Below are positions 19,867-57,703 of a DNA stretch of 64,000 nucleotides, in pieces. Every line of letters begins with the position of its first letter. The stretch's first letter is position 1. The position numbers and the translations under genes are program-made. Below the pieces are notes generated by a model. That model made no database searches and was not told the DNA's origin. It was given only the letters and a program-made list of their open reading frames with translations. Origin of the DNA: Catellatospora vulcania (lineage in GTDB: Bacteria; Actinomycetota; Actinomycetes; Mycobacteriales; Micromonosporaceae); NCBI RefSeq assembly GCF_009720385.1, contig NZ_WARX01000017.1:1-64000 (forward strand), written 5' to 3'.

Positions 19867-19921
19867 GATCATGAACTTATGGCACGGCTCGACGGTGTGT
19901 CGTCGCCACAACTTCATGATC
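19867..19921. repeat. 55-bp GATC-bounded palindrome (type B, copy 1), likely terminator of malEFG
   Basis: Arms GATCATGAACTT.TGGC and GCCACAACTTCATGATC surround a conserved centre GGCTCGACGGTGTGTC. The length from first GATC to last GATC is 55 bp, the same as copies at 32620, 57550 and 57649. It is flanked by GTT and AAC, which extend the symmetry. Confidence 0.88.
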
Positions 19922-32059: not shown

Positions 32060-32905
32060 TCAGCGGGGGCGGTAGGTTCCGATGCGGACGGAGGCCGTGC
32101 AGGTCACCGGGGCTGTGGCGCGGGACTGGCTGTGGAAGGCGTTGGGACCCATCGCGATCAGGTCGTCGGCTTGCGTGGCGGTCAGGTGGAGGTCCCACTC
32201 CAGCAGCTGTTCGCCGGTCTGGGTGAAGTCGCGCAGCTCGTGGGCGAGGCGTTCGGCCTTGGACGGATCGACCGACAGCAGGCCCAGCCGCTCGCGCAGC
32301 TCCGCGAGGTGCCGTTCGGTCGGGGTGACCACCACCAGCAGGCCGCCGGGCTTCAGCACCCGGCGCATCTGCGTGCCGTTGCGCGGGGCGAAGACGTTGA
32401 GCAGCAGGTCGACGCTGTCGTCGGCGAGCGGCAGGGTGCCCCAGGTGTCGGCGAGCACCGCTCCGGCCCGCGGGTGTGCCTTCGCCGCCCGCCGCAGCGC
32501 CGCCTTGCTGACGTCGAACGCCAGCCCCTGCGCCTGCGTCCAGCCGTCGAGCACAGCCGCCAGGTAGTACCCCGTCCCGGCACCCAGATCCACCACCAGC
32601 GGCACCGTCCCGCCGCGCTGATCATGAAGTTGTGGCCGCGACACGCCGTCGACCCGTGCCATAAGTTCATGATCAACCAGGTTGGTGAGGGTGGTGGCGA
32701 GGGGGAGGTAGTGGGCGGCGGAGAGGAAGGCGGTGCGGGCGGCGACCATGGCGGGGGTGTCGCCTTCGGGGAGCTTGCGGCCGGTGCCGAGGGTGACGTA
32801 GCCGTGTTTGTTGAGGTCGAAGCTGTGGTTGTTCGGGCAGCGCAGGGTGGGGTCGGTGCGGGTCAGGGGCTGGGCGCAGACGGGGCAGCGCAGCGCGTCA
32901 GTCAT
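32060..32905 (-). CDS. RlmA-type rRNA (guanine-N1) methyltransferase with an in-frame palindrome insertion
   Basis: A 281-residue SAM-dependent methyltransferase of the RlmA family, which methylates N1 of G745 or G748 of 23S rRNA; the G748 branch (TlrB) confers macrolide resistance in actinomycetes. The zinc site Cys7-x2-Cys10...Cys23-x3-His27 ([12 protein letters not shown]) and SAM motif [10 protein letters not shown] (about 104-112) are present. The gap between HYLPL and motif I is about 34 residues, against about 18 in Escherichia coli RlmA. The extra stretch, residues about 78-96, is encoded exactly by a type B palindrome. I prefer the ATG at 32905; a GTG five codons earlier is possible. 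It is divergent from add by 34 bp. Confidence 0.88.
32620..32674. repeat. 55-bp GATC-bounded palindrome (type B, copy 2) inside a coding sequence
   Basis: In reverse complement it differs from copy 1 at only a few positions and has the same 55-bp length. Unlike the other copies it lies inside an open gene, and the minus-strand reading frame passes through it without a stop, encoding [18 protein letters not shown]. Confidence 0.9.
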
Positions 32906-32926
32906 CTCGGCGGTGAGCACACCGAA

Positions 32927-57549: not shown

Positions 57550-57604
57550 GATCATGAACTTATGGCACGGCTCGACGGCGTGTCACTGCCATAAGTTCAT
57601 GATC
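57550..57604. repeat. 55-bp GATC-bounded palindrome (type B, copy 3)
   Basis: Perfect 18-bp arms GATCATGAACTTATGGCA and complement around a 19-nt centre with CGGCTCGACGGCGTG. It is 14 bp after the upp stop. It is the most symmetric of the four type B copies. Confidence 0.92.
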
Positions 57605-57648: not shown

Positions 57649-57703
57649 GATCATGAAGTTGTTCACGTGACACGCCGCTGAGCCGTGCCATAAGTTCATG
57701 ATC
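57649..57703. repeat. 55-bp GATC-bounded palindrome (type B, copy 4), supplies the stop codon of the next gene
   Basis: Arms differ between AACTTATGGC and AACTTC variants, but the length is again 55 bp. Its end overlaps the TGA stop (57702-57704) of the minus-strand methyltransferase gene. Confidence 0.9.

Follow-up and report, generated by a model that had tools for sequence, protein, structure and literature searches.

As described by Di Nocera et al. (2013; PMC3733652), most REPs are found on the 3' side of genes, while a number of them sit within genes and are coding. The repeat that we describe here from Catellatospora resembles them in several ways: both are dispersed, short, imperfect palindromes, mostly on the 3' sides of tandem or convergent genes, with some inverted pairs and some intragenic copies (PMC3733652). 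However, the REPs of that account carry GTAG or CGTC tags and are linked with RAYT, whereas the Catellatospora repeat has 55 bp, GATC ends and no RAYT in the genomes searched. It also differs from them in having a hardly palindromic form, the X type, and one coding copy that is fixed genus-wide.

The Rickettsia palindromic elements (RPEs), as treated in the review PMC10969869, are about 150 bp long, and R. conorii has 44 of them inserted in genes. Like the repeat in the Catellatospora RlmA gene, they are palindromic repeats that add residues in frame to apparently intact proteins. RPEs occur in many genes, whereas of 100 classed copies of the 55-bp repeat, all of those deep inside a gene are in RlmA. 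MITEs and the repeat (in its S type) are both short, non-coding and multi-copy, with inverted-repeat ends, but the latter has no demonstrated target-site duplication, empty site or partner transposon. As for the host protein, it shares the Zn ribbon, the SAM domain and the fold of the RlmA(I)/RlmA(II) 23S rRNA N1-guanine methyltransferases (1p91, MyrA, Erm32, ChrB), but has 16–20 extra residues ahead of motif I.

In-frame intragenic repeats have been described before, but how old they are and what later becomes of them can seldom be seen. In the 11 species of Catellatospora, coding and nucleic-acid constraint can be contrasted cleanly within the same 55 bases, and it becomes testable whether dispersed repeats rewrite coding sequence. 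The repeat is a REP-like family of gene 3' ends that has entered coding sequence only exceptionally among the classed copies.

An RlmA-type gene with an in-frame copy of the repeat

The window is a 64,000-nucleotide stretch of Catellatospora vulcania DNA (NZ_WARX01000017.1, positions 1 to 64,000). A preliminary description had placed a GATC-bounded 55-bp palindrome inside a methyltransferase gene and related copies at three other sites, and all four are present (Table 1). The palindrome has inverted arms, but it is imperfect, the arms being 89% complementary. As had been claimed, the frame is open: the host ORF (286 amino acids, GTG start) runs through the repeat without a stop, and the repeat codes for residues 83–100, just before SAM motif I. 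The spacer between HYLPL and motif I was given correctly as well; by hand count it has 34 residues here compared with 18 in E. coli RlmA (1p91 alignment).

Table 1. Positions of the repeat copies and of the RlmA-type gene and its parts in the window.
Feature	Position	Strand	Basis or remark
Intergenic copy	19867..19921	+	15 nt past predicted stop codon; site occupied in 7/8 genomes compared
RlmA-type 23S rRNA methyltransferase gene	32060..32920	-	ORF, Pfam domains, PDB 1p91 sequence and fold
SAM motif, residues 109–117	32570..32596	-	Downstream of insert; from translation
In-frame 55-bp repeat copy, S type	32620..32674	-	+ orientation on gene strand; codons 83–100
N-terminal RlmA Zn ribbon, residues 11–44	32789..32890	-	Pfam
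Intergenic copy	57550..57604	+	After + gene of convergent pair
Copy at - gene end of same convergent pair	57649..57703	-	2-nt overlap with predicted gene end

The protein matches Pfam Zn_ribbon_RlmA and Methyltransf_25/11 above their cut-offs, and G113 and G115 of its SAM motif are invariant among 40 aligned orthologues. Its best named orthologues, from C. paridis, C. coxensis, C. methionotrophica, C. sichuanensis and C. bangladeshensis, are 72–84% identical in the best segment. The best NCBIfam matches (MyrA, Erm32 and ChrB, G748-type) all score under their curated cut-offs, and thus the RlmA-type label is only provisional as to the target base. E. coli RlmA (PDB 1p91) was the best fold match to the predicted structure, with a TM of 0.80. 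The AlphaFold model has a mean pLDDT of 90.5, against 69 for residues 81–90 and 52 for residues 91–100; a helix stops at residue 86, and residues 87–107 have no assigned secondary structure. In the model, the repeat-derived residues are a helix end and a low-confidence loop of a confident RlmA fold, in agreement with the surface loop that the preliminary description had expected. These residues are most likely a tolerated loop of the methyltransferase.

We found the insert in RlmA of all 11 Catellatospora genomes, at the same place, on the same strand and in the same frame, and with no stops. RlmA orthologues are present in 344 of 354 Micromonosporaceae genomes. A family-wide search with an insert-free query returned 30 loci, 24 of them outside the genus, and these 24 were inspected for the insert. 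The 22 that could be parsed by script (L139 and L164 included) all have the short spacer and lack the insert, a comparison that the preliminary description had proposed for related Micromonosporaceae. The other two, L137 and L138, also lack it by match length (783 and 777 bases end-to-end for 263 and 262 query residues). Because 11 of 11 genomes within the genus have the insert and none of the 24 outgroup orthologues does, the insertion is, on this comparison, older than the Catellatospora radiation.

The same comparison bears on two doubts raised at the outset. One was that orthologues might encode the same residues from DNA with no palindrome. Part of this holds: seven orthologues encode similar residues (DHE...D/G-GV..PP...RD) from the hardly palindromic X type. 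However, X belongs to the repeat family as well, and thus the idea of an insertion survives. The other was that the gene might be a pseudogene, or the insert an assembly error. Nothing speaks for this, and an open-frame insert in 11 separate genomes, with domains and fold conserved, contradicts it so plainly that it can be set aside for practical purposes. These results support the view that a member of the repeat family has been turned into coding sequence of a methyltransferase that still looks intact.

The dispersed repeat and the 3' ends of genes

A genome-wide search, as had been proposed, found 66 end-to-end copies of the exact-end pattern in the 8.83-Mb C. vulcania genome and none in the reversed control. 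Thus, the repeat in the RlmA gene is not there by chance. The family has at least one copy in 136 of 354 Micromonosporaceae genomes, in seven of 44 genera and in all 11 Catellatospora genomes. Another large genus of the Micromonosporaceae, g23, has the same arms with a different interior (e.g. ..AAGTTATTGCC..). As far as these searches indicate, the family thus has a broader range and more variety than Catellatospora alone shows. Searches of titles and abstracts found no description of such a repeat in the Micromonosporaceae, and a query with the arm sequence likewise found none.

Two types can be told apart. The S type, ..ATGGCACGG..CAACTTCATGATC, is almost a palindrome: positions 1–9 and 11–12 pair in all 43 distinct copies, with ends that the search pattern itself sets, and 35 of the 43 have C.C at position 10/46. 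The X type has the left arm and core of the S type but ends in ..CCGTGATC. Its ends form five standard pairs, one T.G and one further G-C before a mismatch. GATC is found at both ends of the listed copies; the patterns fix these ends, yet RlmA orthologues found through their protein sequence also show GATC. The mean single-sequence MFE of family copies is -17.7 kcal/mol for X and -23.2 kcal/mol for S.

We classed 100 exact-pattern copies (53 of the 66 in C. vulcania, 13 in genome G084 and 34 in G089) with a simple codon-usage gene finder. The exact patterns miss decayed copies, such as the RlmA copies of G084 and G087. Three of the 100 lie in a gene. Two of them are RlmA copies, from two genomes; the third (L188, 2001–2055) is read through by a predicted gene (672–2072) that stops 17 nt after it, so that the repeat would code for a C-terminal tail. 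The likeness to the RPEs that was drawn in the preliminary description therefore holds for the in-frame insertion relative to orthologues, but not for a family that invades proteins.

The repeat had also been described as marking gene ends, and the non-coding copies agree with this. The left end of the element faces the 3' end of a gene in 41 of 51 copies in C. vulcania, nine of 13 in G084 and 26 of 33 in G089, and the median distance from stop codon to element is 18, 25 and 21 nt respectively. Among the 97 non-coding copies, 35 lie in convergent regions and two in divergent ones. In tandem regions, the + orientation of the element is that of the upstream gene in 39 cases, against 19 in which it is not (binomial p=0.012). 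Several convergent regions have two copies in opposite orientation, as at 57550/57649 in C. vulcania, and more are found in G089. Taken with the unrelated strong hairpin that replaces the element at 19867 in G086, the position after stops, the excess in convergent regions, the orientation bias and the paired copies suggest a role at 3' ends for the intergenic copies, perhaps as terminators or mRNA ends.

The X-type copies of G089 are often paired in inverted orientation, with some tens of bases between them, as in REP doublets (e.g. C1:542303 and 542388). In the 65844 region (L166) and the 108739 region (L168), C. vulcania copies are missing in G084 along with about 100 bp of adjoining 3' sequence. 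As these copies are missing together with the neighbouring 3' sequence, whole gene ends turn over.

At site 19867, the copies of C. vulcania and G087 are identical over 55 bp and their flanks differ. The element is inverted in G084, and the flanks just outside it differ between species; in G086, an unrelated strong hairpin stands where seven other genomes have the element. We had noticed by eye flanking inverted repeats (ccgcgtt..aacgcgg) and considered them as part of the element. This was rejected: over 44 copies, complementarity at positions 4–20 was 0.357 compared with 0.337 under shuffled pairing, where the largest of 1000 values was 0.386. At site 19867 itself, flank pairing at positions 4–12 was 0.84 within species and 0.80 across, with weak covariation. 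Rfam gave no family at gathering score on the window, and two matches on three loci (MIR7533, 42.5 bits of 230 required; Actino-pnp, 23.9 of 47.7) were taken as chance.

Constraint on the nucleic acid and the types of the RlmA insert

The codons of the insert were compared among the 11 RlmA orthologues, which had been retrieved by protein homology and not by arm sequence. Third positions of the gene are mostly G or C, whereas 6–11 of the 18 insert codons end in A or T in each species. In comparisons with an unchanged amino acid, the A/T ending of a codon is retained in 660 of 715 cases within the insert, against 476 of 1383 outside it. Of the amino-acid-invariant codons in the insert, four of seven end in A or T in all 11 species. 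Outside the insert, RlmA has no such codon among 121, and eight neighbouring genes together have 20 among 2748 (Fisher p=1.5e-7 for the insert against these genes, which is only a guide as the species are related). In the four codons of the left arm, the 11 species show a single change at a second position and none at a third; the 13 codons of the middle differ at first, second and third positions alike. Because the arms keep rare A/T-ending codons in all 11 species while the amino acids between them vary, the constraint is on the nucleic acid. Selection on the protein alone does not explain the conservation of the arms.

One candidate for this constraint was a hairpin in the rlmA mRNA, which the preliminary description had suggested might affect translation. 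This idea is weakened by the seven of 11 orthologues that carry the less palindromic X type. RNAalifold gave practically no covariation term for either type. Given the weaker folding of X and the lack of covariation, a conserved hairpin in rlmA mRNA is the less likely explanation. Another candidate is that the arm is kept as a functional nucleic-acid site in rlmA, for protein binding, RNA processing or a slow-codon pause between domains, rather than through exchange with other copies. Left-arm codons with no third-position change in 11 species, next to middle codons that vary throughout, are what such a site would predict; by itself, however, it would leave the change of the whole interior block unexplained, and we consider it doubtful. 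Most likely, exchange with intergenic copies maintains the nucleic acid of the insert, or else it is kept by the same process as the intergenic family itself.

S and X differ at 13 diagnostic positions, and both are found at the same RlmA codons in different species. The insert is S in C. vulcania (G000), G087, G084 and G085, with 10–12 of the 13 diagnostic bases, and X in the other seven Catellatospora genomes, with 8–13 of 13. None of the 11 RlmA inserts is intermediate; by eye, S/X hybrids exist among intergenic copies. Counted with the exact patterns, and with the RlmA copy included where a pattern fits, the S/X copies are 66/0 in G000, 45/0 in G084, 47/1 in G087, 68/4 in G085, 42/4 in G088, 6/3 in G086, 37/31 in G083, 27/54 in G089, 10/36 in G090, 10/34 in G091 and 9/14 in G092. 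The four S-type inserts thus belong to the four genomes with the lowest share of X, in an ordering that ignores kinship.

Trees built from RlmA or adenosine deaminase singly had poor support, and a tree of eight neighbouring genes was used instead: ((G090,(G091,G092)),((G083,G089),(G085,((G000,G086),(G088,(G087,G084)))))). It has 100% support for G088 with G087 and G084, and 70% for G000 with G086. By hand count, the insert types need at least three changes on this tree.

Proposed history of the RlmA insert

We propose, as the probable history, that a 3'-end repeat was inserted in RlmA in ancient times and kept as a loop, that its arms were held at the nucleotide level and that its block was switched between S and X in place. 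A REP-like, 55-bp element of gene 3' ends would have entered the gene in sense orientation and with an open frame before the Catellatospora radiation. It would have landed past the linker helix and ahead of SAM motif I, and its 16–20 extra residues (the number depends on the outgroup) there form a predicted flexible loop. As the insert was tolerated in this form, the enzyme would have been retained and presumably remained active. Its later evolution was not that of ordinary coding sequence; the 55-bp block would have been swapped from S to X or back, with dispersed copies as donors and most likely through gene conversion or replacement directed by the element. Replacement of the type in place is our best reading of the sequences, the inverted element at 19867 in G084 included, although gene transfer may account for part of the pattern.

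Two other histories would account for the types with no such replacement. After one insertion and vertical descent, they could have been spread by ordinary gene transfer, with RlmA passing from one species to another. The eight neighbouring genes reject a single S clade (AU p=2.5e-7), whereas the sequence of RlmA itself, whose tree is weakly supported within the clade, does so only marginally (AU p=0.044, SH p=0.060); because of this, gene transfer could replace some of the switches. The identical copies of C. vulcania and G087 at 19867, with their differing flanks, also look vertical. Against transfer, G085 (S) and G088 (X) have similar residues after the insert, as if the repeat alone had changed, and the same difference of type recurs at the orthologous intergenic pair 57550/57649, which is X in G089 and S in G000 and G084. 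We therefore find it unlikely that transfer explains the whole pattern. The clean split of types, with no RlmA intermediate, could instead mean that S and X were inserted independently, in at least two events, at one codon. A preferred junction is conceivable, as the left flank is GTT (last base in 40 of 44 copies, the two before it in 42–43 of 44). However, the base position, orientation and frame would have to be identical each time, rare events would have to repeat in one gene, and the outgroups include no intermediate occupied state. Independent insertion is quite improbable, more so than transfer.

A stronger version of in-place replacement is concerted evolution, in which the in-gene copy exchanges with 3'-end copies, the 18 RlmA residues track the common type of each species and the arms are synonymously fixed. 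We hold this tentatively, at somewhat below an even chance. If true, a non-coding repeat family would rewrite a stretch of a conserved enzyme. At position 13, three of the four S-type RlmA inserts deviate, while 42 of 43 distinct family copies agree; thus, any conversion was not recent or not complete there. The right ends of S and X are alike over a short stretch only, which leaves little homology for recombination. The C. vulcania RlmA insert is identical to one intergenic copy. We do not take this as proof of exchange, as about 0.23 such matches are expected by chance; six of 53 copies have an identical partner.

With regard to mobility, four unoccupied counterparts were compared between C. 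vulcania and G084; the adjacent 6–42 nt differ too, and neither a target-site duplication, an exact empty site nor the exact length of the insertion could be read from them. A search for Y1_Tnp found no match in the C. vulcania genome and nine matches in six of the 11 genomes of the genus, with the element arm at none of the nine loci. These matches give no support to a RAYT or IS200 as mobiliser.

The RlmA orthologues of G085, G088 and G086 (L117, L118 and L119) have about 20–30 more low-complexity residues after the insert. By eye, these extra residues end alike in G085 and G088 despite the differing types of their inserts. The insert junction seems to be a hot spot of length change.
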